Source: Pseudomonadota bacterium (GTDB lineage Bacteria > Pseudomonadota > Gammaproteobacteria > Steroidobacterales > Steroidobacteraceae). Taken from it: a stretch of 64,000 nucleotides of DNA. Shown here piece by piece: positions 19,807-53,893 of the stretch; within the stretch, counting starts at the first letter, position 1; every line of letters starts with the position of its first letter. The notes under the pieces were generated by a model, which did no database searches, had not been told where the DNA came from, and worked only from the letters and a program-made list of their open reading frames with translations. The DNA lies in assembly GCA_037200975.1 (NCBI GenBank), contig JBBCGI010000001.1:3555716-3619715 (forward strand). Direction: 5' to 3'. The position numbers were made by a program, and so were the translations under genes.

Positions 19807-21887
19807 TGATGGGATGTCTTGCGATCAGAACGCTGGCGAAAGCCATTGTCATTGCCTCGACGTTGGCATCGATGGGCGCGCTTCACGCGCAGGAGCCGGT
19901 TTCTCCGCCGGGAACCGGAGAGGTTCCTGAGCGCGTGCACTACGAGGCGTCCTGGTATCTGCAGTTCGCCCCACGCACCGCGCTCGACATGGTGAATCAA
20001 ACACCGGGTTTTGCGCCGGACTGGCGGGCGGGTGGGAATCGGCGCGGCTTGTCCGGCGCGGCCGGCAACGTGCTGATCGACGGTGAACGTCCGAGCGCCA
20101 AGAGTCAGACGCTCGCCGATATCCTGCAACGCATTCCCGCGAAGCAGGTCGTGCGCGTCGAACTTCTGCGTGGCGCCGAAGTGGCCGGCGATCCTTCGGG
20201 CGCGGCCGTATTGGCCAATGTGGTTCGCGCAAGTTCGGCGGGTGCAGGAACCTGGTCCGCCGGATTCGAGTACGCGCCGCGGCAGGATTTGGCACCCAAC
20301 GGCTATCTGTCATGGAGCGGGCGGGCCGGGCCTACGGACTATGCCATCGGCGCGTCCTCCAACAGTTTCCAGCGCGACCTGCCGGGCAGGCGTCACGTTC
20401 TGGATGCGTTGGGCAACGTGACCGCGGTGCGCATCGATGCATCGCCGCGCGAATACGTCGAGCATGCGGTCAATGCAGAGCTGGTACGCGCAGCACTCGG
20501 TGGACGTCTCGCGCTGACCGGTGAAGTTTCCTATTCGCGTTATGACGAGGACTCGACACTGCTGACCACTACACCCAGCGGCGATCGGCTCGAGGACGAA
20601 GCCAATCCTTACGCCGGGGTCACACACACTTATGAAGGCGGCCTGAACTTCGGGCGCAGCGCCGGCTCGTGGGACCTGACTCTGGCCGCATTGCTGACCC
20701 GCCGGCGCTCGGAAAGCGATGTCAGCTCGACGCATCGCAACAGTTCGGTCGTCATCGATTCTGTGTCCGTTCAAGCGCTGGCGCGCAACAGCGGCGAATC
20801 AGTCGCGCGCCTCACGGCATCGCGCAATTTCGCCGCCCATCGGATCGAGGCCGGTATCGAAAGCACCGTCAACACGCTCGATGCAGGCACGATTCAGTCG
20901 CAAGACCTCGGCGGCGGGTGGACTGAAGTCTACGTTCCGAATGCCAACGTGCGCGTCGAGGAAGGACGCCAGGAAGCCTTCGCTGGGTACATATGGCGGC
21001 CGGGCAGTCCGTGGTCGATGGAAGCCCGGCTGACGGCCGATATGTCCCGCCTGCATTTTGCGGGAGACGTCAATCGCTCGGTGGATCTCGTTTACTGGAA
21101 ACCGTTGCTGCAGATCGGCCGGCTGTTCGGCGAGCGCAACCAGCTGCAATTCCGCATGTTTCGTGACATCGGCCAACTCGATTTCAATGACTTCGTCTCC
21201 GCCCCTTCGCTGGCCGACGATGTGGTGAACGGCGGCAATCCCGCGCTGCGGCCGGAAACCTCCTGGCGCGCGGAGTTCGTGGCCGATGTGCGGATTGGCG
21301 CCGACTCGGCATTCGGCATCAAAGGGTTTCACTACCGGCTCGCCGATGCCATCGACCTGGTGCCGATCGGGGCGCCGGGAATGCAGATCGACGCGCCTGC
21401 CAACATCGGCGATGGCAAGGTCACGGGGATCGACCTCACGGGCAGCTTGCCCTTGCGGACGATCTTTCCCGGCGGCGTCATCGACGTCGTTGCAACCTTG
21501 CAGGAGTCCGAGATTGCGGATCCGATCACCGGTGCGCAACGCACGATCTCGGATTTCCAGACCGCACAGCTCAGGGCGGAATTTCGCCAGGATCTCGCGG
21601 CGCAACGTTTCGCGTGGGGCATCAACTATTCGAAGAATGCTCAGACGCAAAGATTCCGTTTCGCCGAGATCGACACGCACCGCGGCAGCCCGTCGCTCAA
21701 TCTGTTTGTCGAGACCACGGCGATCGAGGCGCTGAAGGTGCGCCTGAGCGCCTTGTCGGTTCTCGACACGGAGTTGCGCGAGCGGACCTTCTTTGCGCCC
21801 GACCGCACCGGCGCAGTTTCCTCGATCGAGAGTGGGGAACGTCGGCCAGGGAAGTGGTGGATGCTGACGCTATCGGGAAATCTTTAG
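19806..21887 (+). CDS. TonB-dependent receptor
   Basis: This 693-residue outer-membrane protein has a signal ending GALHAQ and a compact plug (ALDMVNQTPGF, then VLIDGERPSAKSQTLADILQRIPAKQVVRVELLRG). A long barrel has the recurrent D-x-T-L/W-x-L strand pattern and the NGGNPALRPETSWRAEF motif common to these receptors. The C-terminus ends in WWMLTLSGNL rather than Phe, which is acceptable but less typical. The ATG at 19806 overlaps the GH63-like stop codon, and a second ATG follows at once. It completes a three-gene glycan locus with the two hydrolases. Confidence 0.85.
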   Translation: MMGCLAIRTLAKAIVIASTLASMGALHAQEPVSPPGTGEVPERVHYEASWYLQFAPRTALDMVNQTPGFAPDWRAGGNRRGLSGAAGNVLIDGERPSAKSQTLADILQRIPAKQVVRVELLRGAEVAGDPSGAAVLANVVRASSAGAGTWSAGFEYAPRQDLAPNGYLSWSGRAGPTDYAIGASSNSFQRDLPGRRHVLDALGNVTAVRIDASPREYVEHAVNAELVRAALGGRLALTGEVSYSRYDEDSTLLTTTPSGDRLEDEANPYAGVTHTYEGGLNFGRSAGSWDLTLAALLTRRRSESDVSSTHRNSSVVIDSVSVQALARNSGESVARLTASRNFAAHRIEAGIESTVNTLDAGTIQSQDLGGGWTEVYVPNANVRVEEGRQEAFAGYIWRPGSPWSMEARLTADMSRLHFAGDVNRSVDLVYWKPLLQIGRLFGERNQLQFRMFRDIGQLDFNDFVSAPSLADDVVNGGNPALRPETSWRAEFVADVRIGADSAFGIKGFHYRLADAIDLVPIGAPGMQIDAPANIGDGKVTGIDLTGSLPLRTIFPGGVIDVVATLQESEIADPITGAQRTISDFQTAQLRAEFRQDLAAQRFAWGINYSKNAQTQRFRFAEIDTHRGSPSLNLFVETTAIEALKVRLSALSVLDTELRERTFFAPDRTGAVSSIESGERRPGKWWMLTLSGNL

Positions 21888-21912: not shown

Positions 21913-22689
21913 CTAGTGCGGGATGTAATCCAGATTGATCTTGCGCGACACGGTGCCACGCGCGAGTCCGCCGTCGAATGCCGGGTCGATTTGTCCGCGC
22001 ATTTCCTGCCTTACGGTCACGTCGATGCTGCAGCGGGTGACGGCAGGAAACGAGTTCGGGAAAGCCACGAGGGGATCGATGTTGACGGATTCGCGGCCGT
22101 CGGCGTTGTCGTCGGTGCTCAGCAAGCCGGACGAATACGCGTGCGGCCCCGAAGCCATGGTGCAATCGGAGTTGTAGCTCAAGTCCACTCGTGCGGGCGC
22201 GCCGGTCGGCGACCATTCGACCACCACCGTATCGCCGTTGGTGACTTGTTGGTGGTCGGCTGGCGTTACGAAGACGAAGGGAGCGGGAACGGCGACACGC
22301 GAGTCCGGAGCGTTTCCGCCCTTCTTGCGATTGAACGACACGACGTAGTCGGCGCCTTGCTGATAGTCGAAGCGCGCGATATACGCGGGTGTGAGGAGTG
22401 AATTGTCGCCGTCCATGGTCTTGCACACACCGTTCACACAGGTGCGAAAGAAGTCGCCGCCATCCAGCCGGAACGACTCACCAGCCCCGCGGTCGTTGTA
22501 CACGTTCGCACGCGCCACCGCGATTCCCAGTTCGTTGGAGTCAACCGAGAAGTTGAGGGTCATCGCGCTGGTCGGGACGGGTCCGCCGGCAGCGCCGCTC
22601 TTGGAACTGCTCTTTGGAGCGCAGGCTTGCAGCAGCATGGCTGCGGCGGCGAAACCCATCATTCGACAGCAAAACGTGCTCGTTTGCAT
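21913..22689 (-). CDS. Hypothetical lipoprotein
   Basis: I do not recognise this 258-residue protein. It has a lipoprotein signal with lipobox LLQAC ending at Cys23. A Ser/Gly-rich linker follows, and then a beta-rich mature part with six cysteines (including CVNGVC and two later single ones) that could form disulfides in the periplasm or on the surface. A segment near residues 145-175 (PADHQQVTNGDTVVVEWSP) has the character of an Ig/fibronectin-like strand pair. I placed the start at 22689 because AAGGGGGA lies upstream and the longer start at 22719 would put the signal too far in. It converges on the TonB receptor gene with 25 bases between, and its promoter faces the remnant region at 22.7-23.3 kb. 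Confidence 0.7.
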   Translation of the reverse strand: MQTSTFCCRMMGFAAAAMLLQACAPKSSSKSGAAGGPVPTSAMTLNFSVDSNELGIAVARANVYNDRGAGESFRLDGGDFFRTCVNGVCKTMDGDNSLLTPAYIARFDYQQGADYVVSFNRKKGGNAPDSRVAVPAPFVFVTPADHQQVTNGDTVVVEWSPTGAPARVDLSYNSDCTMASGPHAYSSGLLSTDDNADGRESVNIDPLVAFPNSFPAVTRCSIDVTVRQEMRGQIDPAFDGGLARGTVSRKINLDYIPH

Positions 22690-23359
22690 TGCCTGCTCCC
22701 CCTTCAAGTGGTTAGGCATTTCTTGTTGGCCTGCGAACCTTCACTCCGACCGCGAAGCGAAACAATTATCCCGATGCGAGTAGTGGATGGCGATACCGTC
22801 GGCGGCGGCTCCTGCTACCAATGTGCGAAAGTTCCGCATTCCGGGAGTCGAGGGCGAGCACATCTCCGCCCGAGCCCATCGAGGGCATGACGTTCATCTC
22901 CAGACATCGCTTGACGAAGGCGTTGCGGGTGTACTGGCAGCCTTGATCGGCGTGAAAAACCACTAGCTGCAGCCTTCGCCGCGGCTGCTTCCACTTCCCG
23001 ATCGCGGCGATCACGTCGTCGCCGCAAGGCACGACGCGCGCGCCGCCATTCTTCGAATTTGCGTATGCAACCGGCGCAGTTTCATTCGAAACGGCGAGGT
23101 CACCCACCGTTCAAACACGGCGCCTATCTATCAGGTGGCGCTCGGCAACACGCCTGAAGAGGTTGTCGAGCTTGTCCGCAACGTCAAGGCCTTTGCCGAC
23201 GAACTCCTTCGGCGGTCGGTCGCGTTCGCGAAGTTCAAGGAGAACGATCGTGCAAAACCCGATTGCGGTGTGTTGCTCACCAACAGCTGGCAGCGAGCTT
23301 GTTCCGGAATCGCCCCAGGCCTTCAGTGGCAATCAACTCGGACGCGTTGGGGCGACGCC
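22690..23359. other. 670-bp gene-poor region with an IS remnant
   Basis: Apart from the transposase fragment at 22862-22966 I see no supportable gene here. Short open frames exist on both strands but lack ribosome binding sites and recognisable motifs. The 23120-23340 part is lower in GC than the flanks and may be further decayed mobile DNA. Confidence 0.5.
22862..22966 (-). pseudogene. IS3-family transposase (OrfB, integrase core) remnant
   Basis: About 35 residues on the minus strand read VVFHADQGCQYTRNAFVKR, then CLEMNVMPSMGSGGD. They match the rve-type DDE core of IS3 OrfB, where the second catalytic Asp lies in HSDQGSQY and the motif PSMSRxGN/PSMGSxGD follows. The reading stops resembling a transposase right after GGD, so the third catalytic Glu and both ends of the element are missing. 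No terminal inverted repeats were found. This is a dead fragment that marks past insertion and deletion at this spot. Confidence 0.7.
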
Positions 23360-25024: not shown

Positions 25025-25849
25025 CTACACGGCGGTACGGGTATTGAGCGCAGCGGCGAGCGGATCGTCGGGATGGGCCGCCACGAGATGTGAGTTGTGC
25101 GTCGGCTCGACGAGCACGGCAGCCGCGCGCAGCGCCTCCACCACCGCTTCCGTAGTTTCCGGCGGAATCCAGCCCGACATGCCGATGGCTGCGTGAATGG
25201 GCTCACCCACGGTGACCGCAACCGTGTGCTGATCCACTTCCGGCTTCACCAGAATCCGAACGTATCCCTGCGCCCGGATCTCTGCGAGCGTGTCGCGAAG
25301 CGATTCGATCCCCGCAGGAAAATTCGGGATCTCCTGCCCGCTGTAGATATCGGTGACTTCGTCATCGTCCAGCTCGGCGAGCAACGCCAGGCCGATACCA
25401 CCGCGAGTCGCCGGATACAGGCCGATGCGGCCGAGCGCCTCCGATGAAGAGAATCCTGGCGGGGCGTGATAGAGATAACTCACGTTGTCGCGCCAGAGCA
25501 CGCCCATTGCGACCGTATGATTGAACCGCCGCAGCGACTCGAGCGCCGGCAGCGCGCGGCGAATCAGACCCGACGCGAACAGACTCTGCGCAGCGAGCAC
25601 GTGCATGCCGGGGCCGGCGGTGTATTTGCGATCGGCGGTCTGACGGGCGATGCCCAGTGACGCGAGAGTCTTCAGCAGGCGATTGACCCGCGTCGGGTCG
25701 AACCCGAGCCGGCGTGCGAGCTCGCGGCCACCCACAGGCGCCTCGGACGTGGCGAGCGCCTGCAACGTCGCGATTCCATCGATCAGGCTCTGGTTAGGCT
25801 GAGCGCTCTTCTGACGGGAGGCCATGGCGCGCGGGATACTAGCACTCAC
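25025..25849 (-). CDS. IclR-family transcriptional regulator
   Basis: This 274-residue protein has an N-terminal winged helix (residues 20-80: LIDGIATLQALATSEAPVGGRELARRLGFDPTRVNRLLKTL). The C-terminal IclR effector domain contains PALESLRRFNHTVAMGVLWRD and PATRGGIGLALLAE. The GTG start at 25849 overlaps the TGA of the DapA-like gene, which implies coupled translation; the ATG at 25825 is an alternative. As the local regulator of a divergent catabolic island, it is the obvious candidate to bind the two inverted repeats at 26797 and 26858. IclR proteins of sugar-acid pathways typically respond to a pathway intermediate such as a keto-deoxy acid. Confidence 0.9.
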   Translation of the reverse strand: MSASIPRAMASRQKSAQPNQSLIDGIATLQALATSEAPVGGRELARRLGFDPTRVNRLLKTLASLGIARQTADRKYTAGPGMHVLAAQSLFASGLIRRALPALESLRRFNHTVAMGVLWRDNVSYLYHAPPGFSSSEALGRIGLYPATRGGIGLALLAELDDDEVTDIYSGQEIPNFPAGIESLRDTLAEIRAQGYVRILVKPEVDQHTVAVTVGEPIHAAIGMSGWIPPETTEAVVEALRAAAVLVEPTHNSHLVAAHPDDPLAAALNTRTAV

Positions 25850-26760
25850 TTCATCCCGCCGATCAAATCCCGCAGCCGCAGGAGCAGGGCGTCCAGCTCT
25901 TTGAGGTCGTCCGCATCCAGCACGGGTCCGGGTGCGCGCGTGTACGGGCTTTCGATGAGGCCGCGCCTGAGCAGCACCTCTTTCGTGAGCCGCCAGCGAA
26001 AGATGGCCTGCATGCTGAGCAGCGGCAGGCAGTGTTCGAACAGATCGCGCGCACGCTCGACATCACCCGCGCGATGCGCCGCGAGCATCTGCACGTGGGC
26101 CTCGACGATCTCGCAGGCCGGCATCGTCCCGGCGGCACCCCGGTTCATTTCATCGATGATGTAACGTCCGCCGGCTCCGCCGAACACACCACGAAGATGA
26201 GGCACGTGTTCGCGCAGCAGGGTGGTGATGCGCTGGCCACACGGGGGCGTTTCCTCTTTTACGAGCTCGATACCGGGCGCGCCGCGCACCAGCGCGGACA
26301 ACGCGTCGACCGACAGCCCGATGCCCATCGGCTTCGGTGCGTTCTGCAGAATGATGGGCAGCCGTGAATTGCGCGCGACGTCATCCAGAAAAGTCGCCAT
26401 CCGGGGAAGATCATCGGCGAGGGCGTGCGGCGTCATGATCATTGCCGCGCTGGCGCCATGTTGCGCGCCGTGCGATGCGAAAGACGCAATGGCATCCAGC
26501 GAACCTGCGCTCGCGCCGACCACAAAATGCACGCGGCCTCCGATCCAGGTGCCGAGCAGCGCCACGAGCGCGTGACGCTCATCGGCGGTGAGCTGCTCGT
26601 ATTCACTCGCCAGGCCAGGAAACACGATGCCATCCGCCCCTGCACCAATTGCGTACTCGAGCACCTTGCGAAGACCGCCCTCATCCACCGCGCCGTGCCG
26701 GTCGAAGATGGCCGGCAGCACAGGAAATACGCCTTGGAAGGTTTGCTGTTCGATCGTCAT
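25846..26760 (-). CDS. DapA/NAL-family lyase (candidate keto-deoxy-sugar-acid aldolase or dehydratase)
   Basis: This 304-residue protein has the dihydrodipicolinate synthase family barrel. It opens with GVFPVLPAIFDRHGAVDEGGLRKVLEYAIGAGADGIVFPGLASEYEQLT. The Schiff-base lysine is expected in IELVKEETPP. The usual YNxP motif is replaced by LQNAPKP, which speaks against true DapA. Family members in sugar-acid islands are keto-deoxy-gluconate/galactonate aldolases or ketodeoxyglucarate dehydratases, so it may handle the unsaturated uronate released by the GH105 enzyme. I use the ATG at 26760; the longer frame runs through the operator. It is co-transcribed with the IclR gene. Confidence 0.8.
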   Translation of the reverse strand: MTIEQQTFQGVFPVLPAIFDRHGAVDEGGLRKVLEYAIGAGADGIVFPGLASEYEQLTADERHALVALLGTWIGGRVHFVVGASAGSLDAIASFASHGAQHGASAAMIMTPHALADDLPRMATFLDDVARNSRLPIILQNAPKPMGIGLSVDALSALVRGAPGIELVKEETPPCGQRITTLLREHVPHLRGVFGGAGGRYIIDEMNRGAAGTMPACEIVEAHVQMLAAHRAGDVERARDLFEHCLPLLSMQAIFRWRLTKEVLLRRGLIESPYTRAPGPVLDADDLKELDALLLRLRDLIGGMK

Positions 26761-26796
26761 GAGGGTCCGATGCCTCGCCTCTTTTTGGGTTGTAAC

Positions 26797-26813
26797 GTTG
26801 CTACTATAGCAAC
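26797..26813. promoter_or_regulatory. Inverted repeat (IclR-type operator candidate) before the dapA-like gene
   Basis: GTTGCTACTATAGCAAC has perfect 7-base arms and a 3-base centre. It lies 37 bases upstream of the DapA-like start on the minus strand. It matches the architecture of the element at 26858. Confidence 0.65.
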
Positions 26814-26857
26814 TTAAATTGCCAAATGGACCCGAAGAGGGTTGCAAACGCCATTAA

Positions 26858-26876
26858 TGTCGCTATTATAGCGACA
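26858..26876. promoter_or_regulatory. Inverted repeat (IclR-type operator candidate) before the TonB receptor operon
   Basis: TGTCGCTATTATAGCGACA has perfect 8-base arms around a 3-base centre. It lies 75 bases upstream of the receptor ATG at 26952. The arm core GCTA...TAGC is shared with the site at 26797, and the centres are 62 bases apart. Confidence 0.65.
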
Positions 26877-26951
26877 CCGATGCAGGCGAACGCGCGGTCG
26901 GAGTGTCCCAATCACCAAGAAGATCATCCACTGGGATGGATCGGGGGATCG

Positions 26952-29591
26952 ATGACTAATAAGAAGAGAGTGTTCCTGTGGGTCGTGGCGACTCAGCTCT
27001 GGATTCCCGCGGCGTTTGCGCAGCAACCCCCGGGCGCCGACGGTGACCTGGACGAAGTCGTCGTCACGGGCGTGCGCGAGAGCCTCGACCAGGCGCGCGA
27101 CCTCAAGCGCAACCAGATCCAGTTCGTCGACGCCATCGTGGCGAGCGACATCGGCAAACTACCGGACACCAACGTCGCCGAATCGCTGGCGCGTGTGTCG
27201 GGCGTGCAGATCGATCGCGGTATCGGCGAGGGCACGGACATCACCATTCGTGGCCAGCACGAAAACGTGATCCTGTTCAACGGCCGGCAGATCTTCGATT
27301 CCACCGGTCGCGGCGGCAATGGACTCGATCAGCTCAACACCTCGACGTACGGCCTCCTGAGCCTCGTGCCGTCGGAGCTCATCTCGCGGCTCGAAGTCAC
27401 CAAGCTTTCCGGCGCCGATCAGATCGAAGGCGGCCTCGGCGGTGTGGTGGACATCGTGACGCGCAAACCGCTCGACGTGCACGGTCCGCAGTTCGCGGTG
27501 AGTGGCACCGCCAGCTACGACGATCTGCCGGGCAAGGGCGGATACGAGTTCTTCGGCCTCGCGTCCAACACATTTGCGGACGACACATTCGGCATTCTCG
27601 TGAGCGCCGTCGCTGGCAAACGCGATCTGGCCGAGCAGGGTGTCAACACCTTCTCGGGCTGGGGCGTGATCGCCGACAACGACGCACCGCTGTTCGACGC
27701 AAATGGAAATCCGGTCTCGAACGATCCCAACGGCGACGGCAAATCCGGCCTGTTCGACCTGGACGCGCGTCTGCAACAGATAGCCGAAACCCGCGAGCGG
27801 GTGGGCCTCACCGCGCTCGCGCAATGGCGCCCGAGCGAGAACTTCGAGCTGACGCTCGATGGGTTCTATTCGCGCCTCGATTCGGATCGCGACCGCTACT
27901 GGATCGGCTACTTCGCCGGCTTCGGCCCGCACACCGACGTGGTGTTCTCGCCGCACGAGAACCTGCTCGCCGGCATCGTGACGCGGCCCATCAACACGAA
28001 CGCAGAGTTCGCCGACACCGAGTCCGACATCAAGTCCACGGCGCTCACGGCGGACTGGAGCGTGAGCGAATCCTGGAAGATTCACGGCGCAGTGGACTAC
28101 TCCGATTCGACGTCGTCTTACGCGCAGCGATTCTTCCGGCTGCAATCGAATGCCGGCGTGCCGATTTCCTACGACCTGCGCGTCGGGGATTTCGGCTCGT
28201 TCACGTTTCCCACGGACCTCACGGATCCTTCCGGGCTCAATCTCGCCATCCTCTACGACAACCTGTTCGCCTCCGAATCGAAGAACAAGAGCGTGAGCGG
28301 GGATTCCACCTGGACATTCGACTCGAGCTGGTTGAAATCCGTCGAAGTCGGCGCGCGTTACAACGAGATCGACACGGACACGCTGCAACGCCTGCGTGAC
28401 ATCGAGCCGGGAACTCCCGCCACCGATCTGTCCGCATTCACCACGGTATTCAGCAATCCCGACTTTCTCCCCGGCGGCGCCCCGGGACTGCCGCGCTCCT
28501 ACCTGACGGGCAGCAAAAGCGTGTTCGAGAACTGCGAATCGTTCGCGGAGATCTGGAATGCCGATCAGCAGGCGATCTGCGAAACCACCGTCACGCCGCT
28601 GGGCAGTTTCCAGATCGAGGAGAAGTTCACCGCGGCGTACGCGAAGCTCGACTTCGAGGGATCGCTCGGGGATCACAAGTTGGCCGGCAACGTCGGCGTG
28701 CGGTTCCTGCACCGCGACCTCACCTCCACAGGTTCGCTCGTTTCGAACGGCGGCGTGATTCCGAACGTGTTCGAGCGCACCGACGACGACGTGTTGCCGT
28801 CCGCCGTGGTCCGCTACGACGCCAGCGACAGCGTCGTCCTGCGCTTCGGTGCCGCACGTGTGGTGGCGTATCCGAACACCGAGGCGCTCAACAACGGCCT
28901 GCAGGATTTCGACGACGGCACGGCGGTCGGCGGTAGCCCGGATCTCGATCCGTTCCGCGCGAACCAGTTCGATGCGTCGGCGGAGTGGTACTTCGCGCCC
29001 GGCTCGCTGCTGTCGCTGGGACTCTTCTACAAGGACATCGACACTTTCATCGTGCAGTCCGCGCAACAGGAAGATCTGCCTGGCCACAGCACGCCGGTCA
29101 CGGTGGTGCGCCAGATCAACGGCGAGGCGGCCAAGGTCAAGGGCGTCGAGGTGCTGTACCAGCAGCCCTTCACGTTCCTGCCCGCGCCTTTCGATGGCTT
29201 CGGAGTCGTCGCGACGTACTCATTCATCGACAGCAACACGCCCGTGGAGGATCGCAACGGCAACGCGCTCACGCTGCCGGGGCTTTCCAAGAACAACGTC
29301 AACCTGGTGGCGTATTACGAGAAGGGGCCGGCCAGCATCCGCCTCGCCTATAACTGGCGCGACCGCTACCTGCAGGGCATCGGGCCCAGCGATACCGGTG
29401 TGTTCTTCGACGAGTACAAGGATTTCGCCGCCACGGCACGCTGGGAGTTCAGCAAGTCGCTGTCGGTGACCCTGGAGGGCATCAACCTGCTCGACAGCCA
29501 GCTCCGCACCTACAATGCGTTTCCCGAGGCACTGCGCACGAATACCGAATACGGACGGATCTTCAAATTCACGGTTGCCGCGCGATTCTGA
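26952..29591 (+). CDS. TonB-dependent receptor (FyuA/CirA-like, sugar type)
   Basis: This 879-residue receptor has a signal peptide (VFLWVVATQLWIPAAFAQ) followed by DEVVVTGVRESLDQA, the TonB box and start typical of sugar-related receptors of this class. The plug has DIGKLPDTNVAESLARVSGVQIDR and TIRGQHENV. The barrel ends in FKFTVAARF with a terminal aromatic residue. I start at the ATG at 26952 because the in-frame ATG at 26826 would place the signal peptide 42 residues in and would translate the operator at 26858. It leads a tightly packed galactose/galactonate operon and presumably imports the oligosaccharide. Confidence 0.93.
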   Translation: MTNKKRVFLWVVATQLWIPAAFAQQPPGADGDLDEVVVTGVRESLDQARDLKRNQIQFVDAIVASDIGKLPDTNVAESLARVSGVQIDRGIGEGTDITIRGQHENVILFNGRQIFDSTGRGGNGLDQLNTSTYGLLSLVPSELISRLEVTKLSGADQIEGGLGGVVDIVTRKPLDVHGPQFAVSGTASYDDLPGKGGYEFFGLASNTFADDTFGILVSAVAGKRDLAEQGVNTFSGWGVIADNDAPLFDANGNPVSNDPNGDGKSGLFDLDARLQQIAETRERVGLTALAQWRPSENFELTLDGFYSRLDSDRDRYWIGYFAGFGPHTDVVFSPHENLLAGIVTRPINTNAEFADTESDIKSTALTADWSVSESWKIHGAVDYSDSTSSYAQRFFRLQSNAGVPISYDLRVGDFGSFTFPTDLTDPSGLNLAILYDNLFASESKNKSVSGDSTWTFDSSWLKSVEVGARYNEIDTDTLQRLRDIEPGTPATDLSAFTTVFSNPDFLPGGAPGLPRSYLTGSKSVFENCESFAEIWNADQQAICETTVTPLGSFQIEEKFTAAYAKLDFEGSLGDHKLAGNVGVRFLHRDLTSTGSLVSNGGVIPNVFERTDDDVLPSAVVRYDASDSVVLRFGAARVVAYPNTEALNNGLQDFDDGTAVGGSPDLDPFRANQFDASAEWYFAPGSLLSLGLFYKDIDTFIVQSAQQEDLPGHSTPVTVVRQINGEAAKVKGVEVLYQQPFTFLPAPFDGFGVVATYSFIDSNTPVEDRNGNALTLPGLSKNNVNLVAYYEKGPASIRLAYNWRDRYLQGIGPSDTGVFFDEYKDFAATARWEFSKSLSVTLEGINLLDSQLRTYNAFPEALRTNTEYGRIFKFTVAARF

Positions 29592-29635: not shown

Positions 29636-30367
29636 ATGCGTTTCCAAGGGATTGTTGCGGTTGTCACTGGCGCGGCGGGCGGGATCGGGCAGGCGGTCTG
29701 CGCGCAGCTCAAGGCCGAAGGCGCGAAAGTTGCGGGGCTCGACCTGAAAGCGAGCCCGGCAGCCGACCGGTCCATCGTTTGCGATGTAGGTAGCGATCTC
29801 GCGGTCACGCGCGCGGCGGAAGAAGTCCGCGCGCATCTCGGGGACCCGGGCGTCGTCGTACACGCGGCGGCGATCAGCGAGAACCTGCCGACGCTCGATT
29901 CCTCGACCGAGGCCTTTGCGCGGCTCTACAACGTGAATGTGATCGGTGCGGTGCGCATGGTGCTCGCGTTCGCTCCGGCAATGCGTACGGCGCGGCGCGG
30001 ATCCATCGTCTTGGTGAGCTCCATCAATGGAGCGATGGGTGCGCCGGGCCTGGCGGCCTACGCAGCTTCAAAAGGCGGGCTCGATGCGCTGCTGCGTTCG
30101 CTGGCGCTGGAGCTTGCGCCCAGCGGTATCCGTGTGAATGGCGTGGCGCCGGCTTCGATCGACACGCCGCTGCTGCAGGCATCGTTCGACCGGAATCCGG
30201 ATCCCGGCTCGGCGCGCGCGGCGAACATCAAACGCCATCCGCTCGACCGGCTCGGAACGCCGCGCGATGTCGCGCAGCTGCTTGCCTTTCTGGCGTCGGA
30301 CGAGGCGTCGTGGGTCACCGGCGCTATCTACCCGCTCGATGGCGGAGCGCATCTCGCGCGGCGCTGA
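29636..30367 (+). CDS. SDR-family dehydrogenase (candidate galactose 1-dehydrogenase)
   Basis: This 243-residue classical SDR has TGAAGGIG at residues 11-18, the acidic NAD-selecting GLDLK, the catalytic serine in SIVLVSSINGAMG and the YAASK pair. It ends with YPLDGGAHL. In an operon that continues with a lactonase domain, a galactonate-type dehydratase, a keto-deoxygalactonate kinase and the aldolase, the missing first step is oxidation of the free aldose at C1. This SDR is the only candidate, so I infer galactose (or another hexose) 1-dehydrogenase. SDRs of this type can also be 3-ketoacyl reductases, so the substrate needs testing. It begins 44 bases after the receptor. Confidence 0.85.
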   Translation: MRFQGIVAVVTGAAGGIGQAVCAQLKAEGAKVAGLDLKASPAADRSIVCDVGSDLAVTRAAEEVRAHLGDPGVVVHAAAISENLPTLDSSTEAFARLYNVNVIGAVRMVLAFAPAMRTARRGSIVLVSSINGAMGAPGLAAYAASKGGLDALLRSLALELAPSGIRVNGVAPASIDTPLLQASFDRNPDPGSARAANIKRHPLDRLGTPRDVAQLLAFLASDEASWVTGAIYPLDGGAHLARR

Positions 30368-30387
30368 AGACTGCCGGATCACAAAAC

Positions 30388-31320
30388 TTGAGCGCCACCG
30401 CCTTCATCGCCGTGAATTGGGGCAGCAGCACCTTCGCGGCCTATCTAATCGAACCGGCGAGCGGCATCGTGGATCGGCATCGGACGGCAAACGGTGTCAC
30501 GCGACTCGACCGGGACGCGCTGCCGGCCGCGCTCGCCGAAGCGGTGGTTGGCTGGCCGAAGACCGAGCACATTTACTGTTCCGGGATGATCGGTTCCAGC
30601 GCCGGCTGGGTCGAAGTGCCGCATCTCGATTGCCCGGCCACGCTGCTCGAGGTGAGCCGGTCGCTGACACAGACGCGTATCGGCGACGTGAATTGCAGCA
30701 TCGTGCCGGGGCTCGCAGCGATTCTGCCCAACGGCGATCCGGACGTACTGCGTGGCGAGGAGATGGAGATTTTCGGCCTGGTCGCGTTGCAGGGCGCGGC
30801 CACCCCGACGTTGCACGCGGTGCTGCCGGGCACACACACGAAATGGGTGCGTGTCAGCGATGGGTCCGTGAGCGAATTCTTCACCTCGATGGGCGGCGAG
30901 CTGTTCGACCGGCTGGCGGAGAAAAGCCTGTTGAGCAGCGTGCTCGACAAAGAACAGTCCGCGATCTCCGACGAATGGTTTGCGCGGGGCGTGGAGCGTG
31001 GCGCCGCGGAAGGCACGGGGCTGGGACGTCTGTTGTTTGGCGTGCGCGCGCAGGTGCTGCGCGCAAGACTCCCCAAGGCCCACGCCGCCTCGTATGCGAG
31101 AGGGCTGTTGATCGGCGCCGAAATCGAAGATGCGATACGGATGCAGCCGCAGATTCGCAGCCAAGCTTCGATTCCGCTGGTGGGGAATCCGGCGTTGTGC
31201 GAGCTGTATCGGGGCGCGCTGGCGCAATTCGGCGTGGGCGCACACCTCGTCGACGGCGCGAGCTGCCTGCTCGAGGCTTACCGCATCCTTCATCACAACG
31301 TGGTGGGAGCGCGGCCGTGA
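30388..31320 (+). CDS. dgoK: 2-dehydro-3-deoxygalactonokinase
   Basis: This 310-residue protein matches DgoK along its length. The landmarks are FIAVNWGSSTFAAYL (phosphate-1 loop), ANGVTRLDRDALPAALAE, CSGMIGSSAGWVEVPHLDCPA, VLPGTHTKWVRVSDG and the late YARGLLIGAEIEDA. The enzyme phosphorylates 2-keto-3-deoxygalactonate at C6. No ATG fits: the TTG at 30388 gives MSATAFIAVNW, with the conserved motif close to the N-terminus as expected. The frame is open upstream, but those residues overlap the SDR gene. Its TGA overlaps the GTG start of the aldolase fusion. Confidence 0.92.
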   Translation: MSATAFIAVNWGSSTFAAYLIEPASGIVDRHRTANGVTRLDRDALPAALAEAVVGWPKTEHIYCSGMIGSSAGWVEVPHLDCPATLLEVSRSLTQTRIGDVNCSIVPGLAAILPNGDPDVLRGEEMEIFGLVALQGAATPTLHAVLPGTHTKWVRVSDGSVSEFFTSMGGELFDRLAEKSLLSSVLDKEQSAISDEWFARGVERGAAEGTGLGRLLFGVRAQVLRARLPKAHAASYARGLLIGAEIEDAIRMQPQIRSQASIPLVGNPALCELYRGALAQFGVGAHLVDGASCLLEAYRILHHNVVGARP

Positions 31321-32792
31321 GCAATCACTCGTCTGCCTTCGAAGCTGCGTTCGCGCAATGTCCCGCCGTGGCGATCCTCCGGGGAGTCACGCCAACCGAG
31401 TGTGTCGAGGTTGCAGAGGCACTGGTTTCCAGCGGCTTCCGGATAGTCGAAGTGCCGCTCAACTCTCCGGACCCGTTGACCAGCGTGCGGAAGTTGCGCG
31501 CGCATTTCGGCGATCGCGTGGTCGTGGGCGCCGGCACAGTACTCACGGAGCAGGATGTCGACGCCGTCGCGCAGGCGGGCGGTCAGATCTGCGTGGCACC
31601 GAATTGCGATCCGCGCGTGATTCGCCGGGCCATCGCGCAGGGCGTGGTGCCCTTGCCCGGAGTCGCGACCGCGAGTGAAGCGTTTTCCGCGGTCGAGGAG
31701 GGCGCGACGTTTCTGAAGTTGTTCCCCGCCGATGCACTCGGAACGTCGACGGTGAAGTCGCTGCTCTCTGTATTGCCGAAACATGTGCGGCTCATCGCCG
31801 TGGGCGGGCTCACGTCCCGCAATGCCGCCGAGTTCATCGCAGCGGGATGCGCTGGCGTAGGCACCGGCAGTGACGTCTACAAGCCGGGGCTTGCCGCGGC
31901 GGAAGCGGGCGAACGTGCGAAGCGGTTGCTGCGCGCGCTGGGTACGCGGGTTCGCCAGCTCAGCACCGCGCAGGTTCGCGTGGGCGAGAGCCCGTTCTGG
32001 AACGAGAGGACACGCGAGATCGTGTGGGTGGACTTCGCCGCGCCCGCCATCGTTCGCTGTGCGGTCGACGGCGCCGGCGTTCGCGAGCCCACGTCCGCAC
32101 CGCTCGACACCACGCTGTCGGTGGTGATGCCCGCGCCTGATGGGCGCGTGCTGGGTGTTGCCGCGGATTCGATTCGCGAAGTGGACATCGAATCCGGCAA
32201 GACCCGCCATTGGGCGACGGTCGCGCTGCCATTTGCGAACACGCGGCTCAACGACGCCACCATGGATCCGCTCGGGCGCATCTGGAGCGGCTCGATGAGT
32301 TACGCACTCATCTCGGGTCACGGTGCGTTGTTCGTGACGGACACGAAGGGCGCTACGCGCCAGCTGGCGGGTGGGTTCGGCGTGTGCAACGGCATCGGCT
32401 TCAGCTCCGATCACCGCAAGTTGTTCCTCGTCGATACGTTGCACCGGACCTTGCTCTCATTCGATTGCGACATCGAGTCGGCGCAAGTGAGCCCGCCGCG
32501 TATCGTCACGGATTTCCTGCACGTGCCGGGCAAGCCGGACGGCCTCGCAGTCGCGGAAGACGGCGCGGTGTGGGTGGCGATGTGGGGCGGATCGAGAGTG
32601 GTGCGCGTCGAGCGCGACGGGAGCATTTCGCGGCAGATCGTCATCCCGGCGAAACACGCCAGCAATGGCTGCTTCATCCCGGGGAAACCGGACACGCTCT
32701 ACGTGACCACTTCCCGATTCCGGTTGAGCGAGGCCGAGCTGGCGGAAGCGCCGTGGTCGGGCTCGCTCATCGCCGTGGATCTGCCGGCATGA
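31317..32792 (+). CDS. dgoA: Fusion: KDPGal aldolase + SMP-30 lactonase
   Basis: This 491-residue protein joins two enzymes of one pathway. Residues 1 to about 205 are a KDPG/KDPGal aldolase: AILRGVTPTECVEVAEAL, VVGAGTVLTEQDVDAVAQAGG, the Schiff-base lysine in ATFLKLFPADALG, and the phosphate-binding VGGLTSRNAAEFI. From about residue 218 an SMP-30/gluconolactonase propeller begins (VRVGESPFWNERTREIVWVDF) and carries GFGVCNGIGFSSDHRKLFLVDT and the metal-site-like KPDGLAVAEDGAVWVAMW. The linker is only about ten residues. The GTG at 31317 overlaps the dgoK stop. The frame is continuous, with no stop or frameshift at the junction. The lactonase would open galactonolactone, and the aldolase would yield pyruvate and glyceraldehyde 3-phosphate. 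Confidence 0.88.
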   Translation: MSNHSSAFEAAFAQCPAVAILRGVTPTECVEVAEALVSSGFRIVEVPLNSPDPLTSVRKLRAHFGDRVVVGAGTVLTEQDVDAVAQAGGQICVAPNCDPRVIRRAIAQGVVPLPGVATASEAFSAVEEGATFLKLFPADALGTSTVKSLLSVLPKHVRLIAVGGLTSRNAAEFIAAGCAGVGTGSDVYKPGLAAAEAGERAKRLLRALGTRVRQLSTAQVRVGESPFWNERTREIVWVDFAAPAIVRCAVDGAGVREPTSAPLDTTLSVVMPAPDGRVLGVAADSIREVDIESGKTRHWATVALPFANTRLNDATMDPLGRIWSGSMSYALISGHGALFVTDTKGATRQLAGGFGVCNGIGFSSDHRKLFLVDTLHRTLLSFDCDIESAQVSPPRIVTDFLHVPGKPDGLAVAEDGAVWVAMWGGSRVVRVERDGSISRQIVIPAKHASNGCFIPGKPDTLYVTTSRFRLSEAELAEAPWSGSLIAVDLPA

Positions 32793-33793
32793 GTGCGACA
32801 ATTTCCCGCATTGCCGATCGGACCTTGCAGTGGCCGTTTCGCAAGTGGGCATTCGGTGAGGCGATTGCGCTCGAAGGCCTGCTCGAAGCGGCGGTGGTCA
32901 CTGGCCAGGCGGGGTATCGGGAGCAAGTGGAAGCCCTGTGCCGCTCAACCTTGGAACGCGCCGCGGGCACCGCCGAAGATCTCCTCGCACCCGGCGCCGT
33001 GTTGTTAGAGCTTCATTCGTTGACGGGTGACGCTCGCTGGCTGGAAGCGGCGCGCGCGCTGGTTTCCGCACACGAAAAGCTGCCACGGACTTCGCACGGC
33101 GCGCTGCAGGTGCGTGCGCACCAGCCGGGCTGGGCCTGGCAGATCTGGGTCGATTCGATGGATCTGGTCGGCCCGCTGTATGCAAGGTTCGCGGCCGCAA
33201 GTGGTGAGTCATCCTGGTTGCATCGTGCCGTGGAACTGATGCTCGGCTACGCGAATCACCTGCAGCGGCCGGACGGCCTCTTCATGCACGGCTACGACAT
33301 GTACGCAGGCGCGAACGGCCACGCCTGGGCGCGCGGGCAGGGCTGGGCGCTGCTGGGCATGGCCGACGTGCTGAAGGTTTGCAGTTCGTTGTCCGCGATG
33401 GATATCGAAGGCGCCGCGCAGTTGCGCGAACGTAGTTTGAGACTGGTGAATGCCCTTGTTAGTACGCAGCGTCCGAGCGGCCTGTGGAGCACCGTGATCG
33501 ATGCCGCGGAAACCTACGAGGAGACCACGCTCGCTGCGATGTTCGTGCGTGCCACGAACCAGCTCGAGCAGGCGGGCGTTTCGCTCCCATCCCGAATTGG
33601 GACGGCGCGCGCCAGCGCGGTGGCGGCCGTCCGCCGCCATGTCGATGCCGACGGCTCGCTCGGCCTGGTGAGCAGTGCCACACCGGTGGGCCAGCTCTCG
33701 ACATACGCGACGCGACCTTTCGGTGTCTACCCGTGGGGGCAGGGCGCGCTGCTGCTCATGGAATGTTCACTCGCGAATGCGGGCGGTTCGTAA
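32789..33793 (+). CDS. GH105-type unsaturated uronyl hydrolase
   Basis: This 334-residue protein has the (alpha/alpha)6 architecture of GH88/GH105. Key matches are WVDSMDLVGPLYARFAA, where the Asp is the expected catalytic residue, the GHAWARGQGWALLGMADVL helix, YEETTLAAMFVRA and GVYPWGQGALLLME. These enzymes hydrate and remove the 4,5-unsaturated uronate that polysaccharide lyases leave on rhamnogalacturonan, ulvan or arabinogalactan fragments. No signal peptide is visible, so it should work in the cytoplasm on imported disaccharides. The ATG overlaps the fusion gene stop (ATGA). Its presence in a galactose-oxidation operon suggests that the imported ligand contains both an uronate and galactose. 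Confidence 0.87.
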   Translation: MSATISRIADRTLQWPFRKWAFGEAIALEGLLEAAVVTGQAGYREQVEALCRSTLERAAGTAEDLLAPGAVLLELHSLTGDARWLEAARALVSAHEKLPRTSHGALQVRAHQPGWAWQIWVDSMDLVGPLYARFAAASGESSWLHRAVELMLGYANHLQRPDGLFMHGYDMYAGANGHAWARGQGWALLGMADVLKVCSSLSAMDIEGAAQLRERSLRLVNALVSTQRPSGLWSTVIDAAETYEETTLAAMFVRATNQLEQAGVSLPSRIGTARASAVAAVRRHVDADGSLGLVSSATPVGQLSTYATRPFGVYPWGQGALLLMECSLANAGGS

Positions 33794-33796
33794 TAC

Positions 33797-35503
33797 ATGG
33801 CAACGCTCGACTACGTGATCCTGTTCGGCTATCTAGGCGGCACGCTGGCATTCGGGTTGCTGTTCGCGCGCCGCAACCGCTCGGTGCGCGACATGTTCGC
33901 GGCGGGTGGAGCATCGCCGTGGTGGGTGGCCGGGCTCAGCAGTTTCATGACGATGTTCTCCGCCGGAACCTTCGTGGTCTGGGGCGGCATTGCCTACAAA
34001 TATGGCGTCGTAGCCATCCTCATCAACATCTCCTACGGCGTCGCCGCGCTGGCCGCGGGATATTGGGTGGCGGGCAAGTGGAACGCGCTCGGCGTGCGCA
34101 CACCGGCCGAGTTCATCGAGCTGCGCTTCGGCGAAAGGGCGATCCGCTTCTACACCTGGACGCTGATCGGATTTCGCGTGGTCGACGTGTCCATCACGCT
34201 GTACGCGCTGGCCGTGGTGCTGGCCACGTTGATGCCCCTGTCGGTCGGCAACTGGCTGCGAGATCCGCAGACCGGGCACATTTCCATTGCGCTGCTCACC
34301 TGCGGCTTCGGCGCCATCGTCATCGTGTACACGATGTTCGGTGGCTTGTGGGCGGTGCTCATGACCGACGTCCTGCAGTTCGTGATCCTGAACCTGTCGG
34401 TGATCTTCGTGGTCCTGCTCACGTTGATCGGCGTGCCGTCGTTGCACGATCTCGCCGCGGCCGCGCCGGCCGGCTTCTTCGAACCGACGGGCGGTGGTTA
34501 TGGCTGGCTGTTCCTCGCCGGCTGGTGCACCACGCAGTTCTTCATCATCGGCGCCGATTGGGCTTTCGCGCAGCGCTTCCTGAGCGTGCGCAGTCCGCGC
34601 GATGCGCGCAAGGCCACCTATCTATTCGGCTGCCTGTACTTCGTGAGCCCGCTGATCTGGCTGGCGCCGCCGCTGCTGTTCCGGCTCACGCATCCGGGCG
34701 CGAATCCAGAGCAGGCCTATATCCTGGCGGGGCAGGCCGTGCTGCCGGCCGGCATGATCGGCCTCATGGTGGCGGCGATGTTCTCGGCCACCGCCAGCAC
34801 CGTGAGCGGCTATCTGAATGTCTTTGCGGGCGTGCTGACCAACGATGTGTATCGGCGCCTGTTCCGGCCGGCCGCTGGCGAACGCGAACTCGTCAAGGCG
34901 GGGCGGATGTTCTCGGGCATCATCGGTGTGGTACTCGTCGTGCTGGCGGTGGTGGTGCCGCAGGCGGGTGGCGTCGAGCACATCGTGATTCTCTGGGCCA
35001 CGTTGATCGTCGGCCCGCTGATGGCGCCGACGATCTGGGGCCTGCTGAGCCCGCGAGTGACCACGCGCGCCTTGTGGATGACCGTGGCCATCTCGTTTGC
35101 CGCCGGAGTGTTGTTCAAGGTTGGAGCGCAGATGGGATGGGCTCTCATACCGGAGGGAATGGTGGACGTGACGGTCGGCGTGATCCTGCCGGTGATCGTG
35201 CTGAGCGTGGCGCACTTCGTGTCGCGCGGTGAAGCACCCGGATGGCGGCGAACGCAGGAGGCCGCCAGCGCGGCGATTCGCAGCCATGGCCCCATCGACA
35301 CCTTGCCCGCGCGCGCGCTGGGCATTTCGCTTTCCGTCAGCGGCGCCGTGATTTTGGCCCTGGTGCCTTTCGATCCCGGTTATCGCACGAGTCTCGGCGC
35401 CTTCGGTGCCGCAGTGCTGTTGCTGGGCATCGGCGTGTGGTTAGCCGCGCGGCGTCTGCATGAACGAGTCATGCGTGAAAGTTCTCTGGAGGGTGTGTCT
35501 TGA
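33797..35503 (+). CDS. Sodium:solute symporter (SSS family)
   Basis: This 568-residue inner-membrane protein has about 13-14 hydrophobic helices. SSS hallmarks are the opening ILFGYLGGTLAFGLLFARRNRSVRDMFAAG, the AGLSSFMTMFSAGTFVVWGGIAYKYG helix, and the FIIGADWAFAQRFLSVRSPRDARKATY stretch of the family signature. It starts three bases after the GH105 gene and ends overlapping the TTG start of the dehydratase. In this operon it most likely carries galactose, galactonate or an uronate across the inner membrane with sodium. A CTATCTA heptamer lies in its first codons. Confidence 0.92.
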   Translation: MATLDYVILFGYLGGTLAFGLLFARRNRSVRDMFAAGGASPWWVAGLSSFMTMFSAGTFVVWGGIAYKYGVVAILINISYGVAALAAGYWVAGKWNALGVRTPAEFIELRFGERAIRFYTWTLIGFRVVDVSITLYALAVVLATLMPLSVGNWLRDPQTGHISIALLTCGFGAIVIVYTMFGGLWAVLMTDVLQFVILNLSVIFVVLLTLIGVPSLHDLAAAAPAGFFEPTGGGYGWLFLAGWCTTQFFIIGADWAFAQRFLSVRSPRDARKATYLFGCLYFVSPLIWLAPPLLFRLTHPGANPEQAYILAGQAVLPAGMIGLMVAAMFSATASTVSGYLNVFAGVLTNDVYRRLFRPAAGERELVKAGRMFSGIIGVVLVVLAVVVPQAGGVEHIVILWATLIVGPLMAPTIWGLLSPRVTTRALWMTVAISFAAGVLFKVGAQMGWALIPEGMVDVTVGVILPVIVLSVAHFVSRGEAPGWRRTQEAASAAIRSHGPIDTLPARALGISLSVSGAVILALVPFDPGYRTSLGAFGAAVLLLGIGVWLAARRLHERVMRESSLEGVS

Positions 35504-36687
35504 AAATCGAGCGACTCGATGTCTATGTCATCAAGGTGGATCAGCACGACCGCTTCGGCGCGCAGGCCAACAAGCCGCAGACGCTCGGCACCAGCAGCTA
35601 CTATTTCGAAAGCGAATGGCGCGAGGCCTACAGCACGCAGAGTCAGAGCTGCTTCATCCGCATCGAAACGGACAATGGCCTGGTAGGTTGGGGTGAGGCG
35701 CAGGCGCCCCTGGTGCCCGAAGTGGCGGGCTCGCTGGTGCGAGAGTTGCTGGGCCCCATCGTGCTGGGCATGGATCCGCGCCAACCGGAAGTCGTCTTCG
35801 ACCGGCTGTATCACAGCATGAACGTGCGCGGGCACACGACGGGCTTCATGCTGGACGCCATGGCCGGCATCGATCTCGCCTTGTGGGATATCAAAGGCCG
35901 CGCGTACAACGCACCGGTGTGTGAGGTGCTCGGCGGGCCGTTCCGCACGCGTTTGCCGGCCTACATTTCGGGAATCCGCGGCGCCTCCACAGAGGACCGG
36001 GTGCAGGTGTCGCGCAAGGCAGCCACCGCCGGATTCAGCGGCGTGAAGGCCTATCTAGGCCGTGGAGTGGCGCGCGATGAAGCGGAGATCCGCGCCTTGC
36101 GCGCCGGGCTCGACGCGGCCACCGACATCGAGACCGACTGGTTCTGGAAGTACGACCGCTCGGATGCCCTGCGTCTCGGCCGCATCGCGGACGAGTTGCG
36201 CCTCACGTGGATCGAGTCTCCGCTCGACCCCGAGGATATCGCCGGGCACGCCGCGCTGGCGCAGGCCCTCGATACGCCGATCGCCGTGGGCGAGCCGCTG
36301 CGCACGACGCGGCAATTTCTCGACTGGTGCCGGCAGGAGGCACTCGATATCGCACAGCCCGACATCCTTCGCACCGGAATCACCGAAGGCAAGAAGATCG
36401 CCGACATCGTCCACGCGCATCACCGCACGATCGCTCCGCATTCCAGCATTTTCCTCGGAACGGGCACGGCGGCGACCTGGCATCTGTCCGCGGCGATTCC
36501 CAACTTTCGCGTGCAGGAGCATCAGCCGCCGAGCTTCGAGATCACGAACCGCTTCGTGGAGCCGGCCATGCAGGTCATCGATGGCGAGCTCGTCGTGCCG
36601 CTGGGGCCCGGCCTCGGTGTCACCGTGAACGAGCAGAAACTCGCGAGCAGCGTCGCGCAGCATTGGACGGTGACGAAAAAGGCGTAG
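35500..36687 (+). CDS. Mandelate racemase/enolase superfamily dehydratase, galactonate-dehydratase type
   Basis: This 395-residue protein has the two-domain enolase-superfamily fold. The N-terminal capping domain ends near AMAGIDLALWDIKGRAYNAPV. In the barrel the expected metal ligands fall in ETDWFW, WIESPLD and AVGEPLR, and a catalytic His lies in TIAPHSSIF. This agrees with D-galactonate or related sugar-acid dehydratases (DgoD-like), and dgoK and dgoA in the same operon support it. Fuconate, arabinonate or gluconate dehydratase cannot be excluded. The start is a TTG at 35500, preceded by GGAGGG and overlapping the symporter stop (TTGA). It is the last gene of the operon. Confidence 0.88.
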   Translation: MKIERLDVYVIKVDQHDRFGAQANKPQTLGTSSYYFESEWREAYSTQSQSCFIRIETDNGLVGWGEAQAPLVPEVAGSLVRELLGPIVLGMDPRQPEVVFDRLYHSMNVRGHTTGFMLDAMAGIDLALWDIKGRAYNAPVCEVLGGPFRTRLPAYISGIRGASTEDRVQVSRKAATAGFSGVKAYLGRGVARDEAEIRALRAGLDAATDIETDWFWKYDRSDALRLGRIADELRLTWIESPLDPEDIAGHAALAQALDTPIAVGEPLRTTRQFLDWCRQEALDIAQPDILRTGITEGKKIADIVHAHHRTIAPHSSIFLGTGTAATWHLSAAIPNFRVQEHQPPSFEITNRFVEPAMQVIDGELVVPLGPGLGVTVNEQKLASSVAQHWTVTKKA

Positions 36688-53151: not shown

Positions 53152-53676
53152 TCAGCTGCTCTGGCCGGATTTGCGCAGCAGCTTGTATCCCTTGAACGTC
53201 TTGATCTGGTCCAGCAGGAAGTGCGAGGTGATTTTTTCCACGCCGAACCCGCCGTTCACCAGCACGGTCATGATTCTTTTCCAGGCGTGGATGTCCGGCA
53301 CGACCACCCGCAGCATGTAGTCGATGTTGCCGCTCACCCGGAAGGACTCGACGATCTCGGGAATCGCCTCGATGCAGTCGTCGAACTCCTGCAGGTTCTT
53401 GATCGAATGTTGTGAGAAGGAGATCTGCGCGATCACGGCCATGACGCTGCTGATTCGGTCCACCTGGATCTGCGCGCGGTACGCGCTGATGAGACCGCGC
53501 GTCTCGAGATCCCGCACGCGCCGCAGGCAGGCGCTGGGTGACAGCGCCACCCGATCCGCGAGCGCCTGATTGGTGATGCGCGCATCCTGCTGCAGCACCT
53601 CCATGATCTTGAGGTCGATCTGATCGACCTCTTCGAAACTCGTCGTCGTGGCCTTCTTGTCTTGCGGGCCGATCAT
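53152..53676 (-). CDS. Lrp/AsnC-family transcriptional regulator
   Basis: This 174-residue protein has an N-terminal helix-turn-helix (DLKIMEVLQQDARITNQALADRVALSPSACLRRVRDLETRGLI) and a C-terminal RAM ligand-binding domain (VMAVIAQISFS, VSGNIDYMLRVVVPDIHAWKRIM). The N-terminus is slightly extended compared with Lrp. It diverges from the PaiB-hydrolase gene across a 217-base region that holds a perfect 8-bp dyad at 53706, a likely site for autoregulation and for control of the HMG-CoA module. AsnC-type proteins usually sense amino acids or their breakdown products. Confidence 0.95.
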   Translation of the reverse strand: MIGPQDKKATTTSFEEVDQIDLKIMEVLQQDARITNQALADRVALSPSACLRRVRDLETRGLISAYRAQIQVDRISSVMAVIAQISFSQHSIKNLQEFDDCIEAIPEIVESFRVSGNIDYMLRVVVPDIHAWKRIMTVLVNGGFGVEKITSHFLLDQIKTFKGYKLLRKSGQSS

Positions 53677-53705
53677 GGAACGATCCTATCAATCTCGCGG
53701 ACTCG

Positions 53706-53734
53706 CGGGTAAAGGATCTGCTTCTTTTTACCCG
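53706..53734. promoter_or_regulatory. Perfect 8-bp dyad between Lrp and PaiB-hydrolase genes
   Basis: CGGGTAAA (53706-53713) and TTTACCCG (53727-53734) are perfect reverse complements spaced 13 bases apart, with half-site centres 21 bases apart, two helical turns. This is the geometry expected for an Lrp dimer on one DNA face. It could alternatively fold as a hairpin. Confidence 0.5.
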
Positions 53735-53893
53735 TCGGCCGCGCCGATTGTTGCGTGGCTCCGGCGGAAACTCCTTGCGCATCAATGCCCGTGTGCCCGC
53801 GCGAGGCCGTTGACCCCGGCTGGACGTCGGCCAACGCGGTATCCATATTCGCTCGCGCCAAATGCAACCACGGCTTTCACCGCGCGATCCTTC

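Follow-up and report, generated by a model that had tools for sequence, protein, structure and literature searches.

A KDPGal aldolase fused to an SMP-30-type lactonase in a candidate De Ley-Doudoroff operon

The 2-dehydro-3-deoxy-6-phosphogalactonate (KDPGal) aldolase DgoA of Escherichia coli (PDB 2v81/2v82; NF006600), about 205 residues long, stands alone, and members of the SMP-30/regucalcin/gluconolactonase family (PF08450; xylonolactonase 7plb, regucalcin 3g4e) have a free N-terminus. Both enzymes, the pathway and the adjacency of their genes are already known: separate dgoA and lactonase genes adjoin each other downstream of dgoK in the Gammaproteobacteria G668, G965, G448 and G1326, and the same adjacency is widespread in Alphaproteobacteria, with a 4-bp overlap in Ruegeria conchae. 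Precedent for joining a KDPG-family aldolase to another enzyme of sugar-acid catabolism comes from the KHG/KDPG aldolase/sugar kinase fusion (NF041633), and a fusion designed at the C-terminus of KDPGal aldolase (PDB 4qcc) indicates that this end accepts a partner. A natural fusion of a Cu/Zn-SOD to a beta-propeller lactonase is described for Deinococcus radiodurans (PMC12362111). No description of an aldolase-lactonase fusion was found in the open-access literature searched.

Such a fusion is encoded in the window, by which we mean the whole 64,000-nucleotide stretch of DNA that was analysed. The protein resembles DgoA over residues 9-209, in its catalytic positions and in having dgoK as a neighbour, but its aldolase C-terminus runs directly into a lactonase. 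It has the whole propeller and the metal-site residues of the SMP-30 family, with an aldolase in place of the free N-terminus. Against NF041633 it scores 76.6 bits, in the aldolase part only, versus the 700 bits and the sugar kinase domain that this family requires; the partner here is a lactonase acting three steps earlier rather than a sugar kinase. The D. radiodurans protein likewise combines an enzyme with a beta-propeller lactonase, although its partner and function are unrelated to those considered here. The fusion gene is divided as follows.

31317..32792, + strand: fusion gene, KDPGal aldolase (DgoA type) plus SMP-30/gluconolactonase; 491 aa, GTG start
31356..31940, + strand: KDPGal aldolase domain, residues 14-208, with Glu45, Lys134 (the Schiff-base lysine by alignment) and Val162 in AVGG
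31941..31979, + strand: junction, residues 209-221, with no linker beyond the lactonase N-terminal stretch and no stop in any frame
31980..32789, + strand: SMP-30/gluconolactonase propeller, residues 222-491, with metal-site residues Glu224, Asn358, Asp408 and Asn312 of RLND; modelled confidently by AlphaFold

The original prediction of one polypeptide from a single uninterrupted frame with a GTG start is borne out by translation, which gives 491 residues and zero internal stops, and all of the motifs it named were found (ILRGVT, GAGTV, FLKLFPA and VGGLTS in the aldolase, VGESPFWNE at the start of the propeller). A domain search of the 491-residue product, which matched PF01081 at residues 14-191 (E 2.8e-29) and PF08450 at residues 222-466 (E 1.5e-54), and the NCBIfam profiles confirmed the identity of both domains. 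The reading frame thus holds a complete KDPGal aldolase followed by a complete SMP-30 propeller with almost no linker, and every catalytic and metal-site residue checked is present. The linker had been put at about ten residues; it is indeed short, but that length is generous, the aldolase match ending at about residue 209 and the alignment to solved lactonases starting at 218-220. The gene overlaps its neighbours at both ends, its start with the stop of dgoK (GTGA) and its stop with the start of the following gene (ATGA).

The aldolase half scores 255 bits against NF006600 (2-dehydro-3-deoxy-6-phosphogalactonate aldolase; cut-off 207), with residues 9-209 matching model positions 5-205 of 210, and it aligns over its full length with the E. 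coli enzyme in 2v81/2v82. Glu45, Lys134 and Val162 align with their counterparts in 2v81 and are invariant in four fused proteins; the valine of AVGG is presumably a mark of DgoA-like enzymes, KDPG aldolases having threonine there. AlphaFold gives this half low confidence because the alignment is thin there, lactonases alone having been available for it. The propeller half scores 185.6 bits against PF08450 (gathering score 26.3), covering model positions 1-245 of 246, and aligns with regucalcin and with the xylonolactonase of Caulobacter, its closest solved bacterial relative. Glu224, Asn358 and Asp408 align with both and are invariant among the orthologues examined, fused or stand-alone, and all fused proteins retain the R(L/F)ND motif. 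The propeller is modelled confidently (pLDDT mostly 85-95) and matches SMP30 structures with a TM score of 0.85 by target length. Its nearest relatives are stand-alone lactonases of the same locus in Luteibacter and in genome G229.

The whole 491-residue protein was used as a query, with which a true fusion gives an E value near 1e-100, versus 1e-50 for either half. Within the GTDB family of the window (217 genomes) the fusion was found in the window genome only, and no other fusion appeared in samples of the order, class, phylum and an Alphaproteobacteria-like set (296, 369, 398 and 240 genomes), the last so called from its plasmid-borne relatives. It is also present in G1470, G1508 and G1598, which belong to the same family or order as Luteibacter sp. 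dw_328 (locus L060, within G1380); each of these proteins has both Pfam domains and is 41-42% identical to that of the window. The architecture is therefore not common: 1,997 genome look-ups, which include some repeats, gave four species. That the two enzymes are normally separate proteins had been rightly stated, although the frequent direct adjacency of their genes, which makes a fusion mechanistically easy, had been missed. Phyllobacterium plasmid matches that seemed fused in a single BLAST piece were rejected: L062 has separate genes about 10 bp apart, and L064 and L065 contain no annotated fusion.

The fusion lies in a conserved locus with the following further genes.

25025..25849, - strand: IclR-family regulator, conserved in the locus, with 67-69% identity in G229, G1352, G1353 and G1508
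25846..26847, - strand: DHDPS-family aldolase/dehydratase, divergent, conserved in the locus
26826..29591, + strand: TonB-dependent receptor of the locus; relatives have an orthologue in the corresponding position (42-49% identity)
29636..30367, + strand: SDR oxidoreductase, candidate galactose dehydrogenase, from profile searches
30310..31320, + strand: dgoK, 2-keto-3-deoxygalactonokinase, PF05035 at residues 37-321; true start uncertain
32789..33793, + strand: GH88-like glycoside hydrolase, its start overlapping the fusion stop (ATGA)
33797..35503, + strand: SSS-family sodium:solute symporter, from profile searches
35500..36687, + strand: enolase-superfamily (MR_MLE) sugar-acid dehydratase, candidate DgoD; best NCBIfam model galactonate dehydratase, below cut-off

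The operon runs from the TonB receptor through the SDR, dgoK, fusion, GH88-like and SSS symporter genes to the dgoD-like gene, with the DHDPS-family and IclR genes divergent. The proposed De Ley-Doudoroff setting finds support, in that the SDR, dgoK, the fusion and the dgoD-like dehydratase share one operon; the SDR and the dehydratase are candidates placed no further than their superfamilies, with scores under the equivalog cut-offs. The divergent DHDPS gene and the TonB receptor-SDR-dgoK series recur in G229, G1352, G1353, Luteibacter (G1380), G1469, G1492, G1470, G1508 and G1598. The slot after dgoK is occupied by a stand-alone lactonase in six of these relatives (G229, G1352, G1353, G1380, G1469 and G1492) and by the fusion, again with its start overlapping the dgoK stop, in G1470, G1508 and G1598; in Luteibacter it is the ATG of the stand-alone lactonase that overlaps the dgoK stop. 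The genomes with a stand-alone lactonase have another dgoA, in the same neighbourhood in G229, G1352 and G1353 and elsewhere in G1380. In the loci L070, L134 and L135 of G229, G1352 and G1353 the divergent arm has an extra dehydratase and dgoA is placed differently from the window; in G229 that arm also has an MFS transporter adjoining the separate dgoA. The DHDPS-family gene (25846-26847) is kept in every locus copy examined, and its product may provide a non-phosphorylating branch for 2-keto-3-deoxygalactonate.

We propose that the fusion acts in the cytosol as a bifunctional enzyme, carrying out steps 2 and 5 of the De Ley-Doudoroff pathway, and that it arose from neighbouring operon genes, a reading to which we give a probability of roughly 0.8. 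The activities are deduced from membership of curated families, from conserved residues and from the setting in the operon, and the substrates from homology and genomic context. The C-terminal propeller would hydrolyse galactonolactone supplied by the SDR dehydrogenase (step 2), and the N-terminal class I aldolase would cleave KDPGal, formed by the dehydratase and DgoK, to pyruvate and glyceraldehyde 3-phosphate (step 5). This agrees with the earlier statement that lactone opening and aldol cleavage are non-consecutive steps; since the dehydratase and the kinase intervene between them, substrate channelling between the two halves is unlikely. KDPG and KDPGal aldolases are trimers. Because the family is trimeric and a domain can be added at the C-terminus of KDPGal aldolase, the aldolase half would probably trimerise in the same way and carry three propellers. 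Chiefly, the fusion would fix at 1:1 the ratio in which the two activities are produced, and it is most simply explained by matched expression. The earlier suggestion that the fusion exists to balance the lactonase against the aldolase found no support: in other species the two enzymes are already linked by co-transcription of overlapping genes, and the fusion is dispensable, as the six genomes with a stand-alone lactonase manage with the same locus. A second, unfused dgoA lies next to a dgoK elsewhere in the window genome, so there may be another aldolase besides the fused one. Related species that have the same locus with the two enzymes either fused or separate form a natural replicated case and offer a clean comparison of whether fusing two non-consecutive enzymes changes pathway flux, and the fusion is a candidate for a ready-made bifunctional catalyst.

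The fused gene might instead serve another sugar, with another aldonolactone (L-arabinono- or xylonolactone, for instance, or a keto-sugar that the GH88-like enzyme releases) as substrate of the propeller and a related 2-keto-3-deoxy-6-phospho acid as that of the aldolase. SMP-30 lactonases have a broad substrate range, and the closest solved bacterial relative of this one is a xylonolactonase; the SDR is unspecific by model, the dehydratase scores below the curated galactonate dehydratase cut-off, and a DHDPS-family aldolase with no assigned role is conserved in the locus. We nevertheless consider a different sugar unlikely, given that the aldolase exceeds the cut-off of the curated KDPGal subfamily and has valine rather than threonine at the AVGG position, that dgoK belongs to the 2-keto-3-deoxygalactonokinase family, and that a GH36 alpha-galactosidase encoded upstream points to galactosides. 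The putative upstream glycoside hydrolases (8867-11008, 15348-17681 and 17710-19806) are, respectively, a GH36 alpha-galactosidase, a GH101-like and an MGH1-like protein; together with a further TonB receptor at 6753-8855 in the same cluster they suggest a galactoside-degradation island.

As to its origin, the fusion of neighbours offers a natural route, since separate dgoA and lactonase genes adjoin downstream of dgoK elsewhere, and we regard an origin from neighbouring operon genes as likely. In the order dgoK-dgoA-lactonase, sometimes with 4-bp overlaps, loss of the stop/start pair and a shift into one frame would have merged the two genes. A tree of four flanking genes places G1598 first, followed by G1470 plus G1508 and the unfused Luteibacter group as sisters, while the unfused G229 group and the window fall outside. 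The locus genes reject a single clade of fused loci (p-AU 1.7e-26) and require a minimum of two state changes. For the lactonase half, one fused clade is rejected when outgroups are included (p 0.0016 and 0.00017) but not in a smaller set (p 0.071); for the aldolase half, joining that of the window to the other fused ones is not rejected (p 0.29). In the aldolase half, G1470, G1508 and G1598 group as a single clade (100/98), from which it follows that these three share one fusion, and on the locus tree a loss of the aldolase half is the most likely history of the Luteibacter group. Two histories are possible on these trees, one ancestral fusion with two losses or two independent fusions with one loss. 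Derivation of the aldolase half of the window from the same-locus dgoA of G229, G1352 and G1353 was considered and rejected, as it does not group with theirs. A fusion ancestral to the galactose locus, followed by loss of the aldolase half in two lineages, the G229 and Luteibacter groups, seems doubtful to us; were it so, the physical link between steps 2 and 5 would be ancient and favoured by selection as a means of setting flux at the entry and exit of the pathway, rather than a recent accident.

That the lactonase half is only a vestige of an enzyme, or a domain that regulates or scaffolds the aldolase, is very unlikely. Lactones can open spontaneously, and propellers often serve as scaffolds, but the conservation of Glu224, Asn358, Asp408 and R(L/F)ND noted above is against it.

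A sequencing error between the domains was sought at the junction and excluded. There are no stops in the +1 frame between 31858 and 32125 or in the +2 frame between 31871 and 32138, and the only in-frame starts nearby are TTG at 31926 (residue 204, in the last aldolase helix) and GTG at 31980 (residue 222, in the first propeller strand), so that a single indel cannot yield two ordinary genes. Such artefacts do occur: a reverse-order lactonase-aldolase "fusion" of 531 aa annotated in Streptomyces sp. ADI95-16 (RefSeq WP_254211887.1; L063, NZ_CP033582.1, 2962-4557) is a frameshift and was excluded from the count, because the C-terminus of its lactonase is lost out of frame and a near-identical plasmid of Streptomyces goshikiensis has separate lactonase and aldolase genes with a 4 bp overlap. 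In the window, however, both domains are intact to their ends, no plausible ATG or GTG start leaves room for the first strand, and three independent genomes have the same fusion at 41-42% identity, so the chance that a sequencing or assembly error deleted a stop/start between two ordinary genes is negligible. The two cases side by side show how real fusions differ from frameshift artefacts of annotation pipelines.

A few minor observations were made along the way. In Sulfitobacter sp. S190 (L069, NZ_CP081123.1, 2192-3045) the annotation splits dgoK into two short pieces and omits the dgoA that follows; this is probably a decayed copy of the operon. Two probable genes of the window, 19806-21887 (693 aa) and 21913-22719 (268 aa), have no Pfam match at E 1e-8. 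A single 621-aa reading frame at 53648-55513 has FMN_bind_2 (residues 83-242) and Abhydrolase_3 (residues 379-586) domains and is possibly another two-enzyme fusion.
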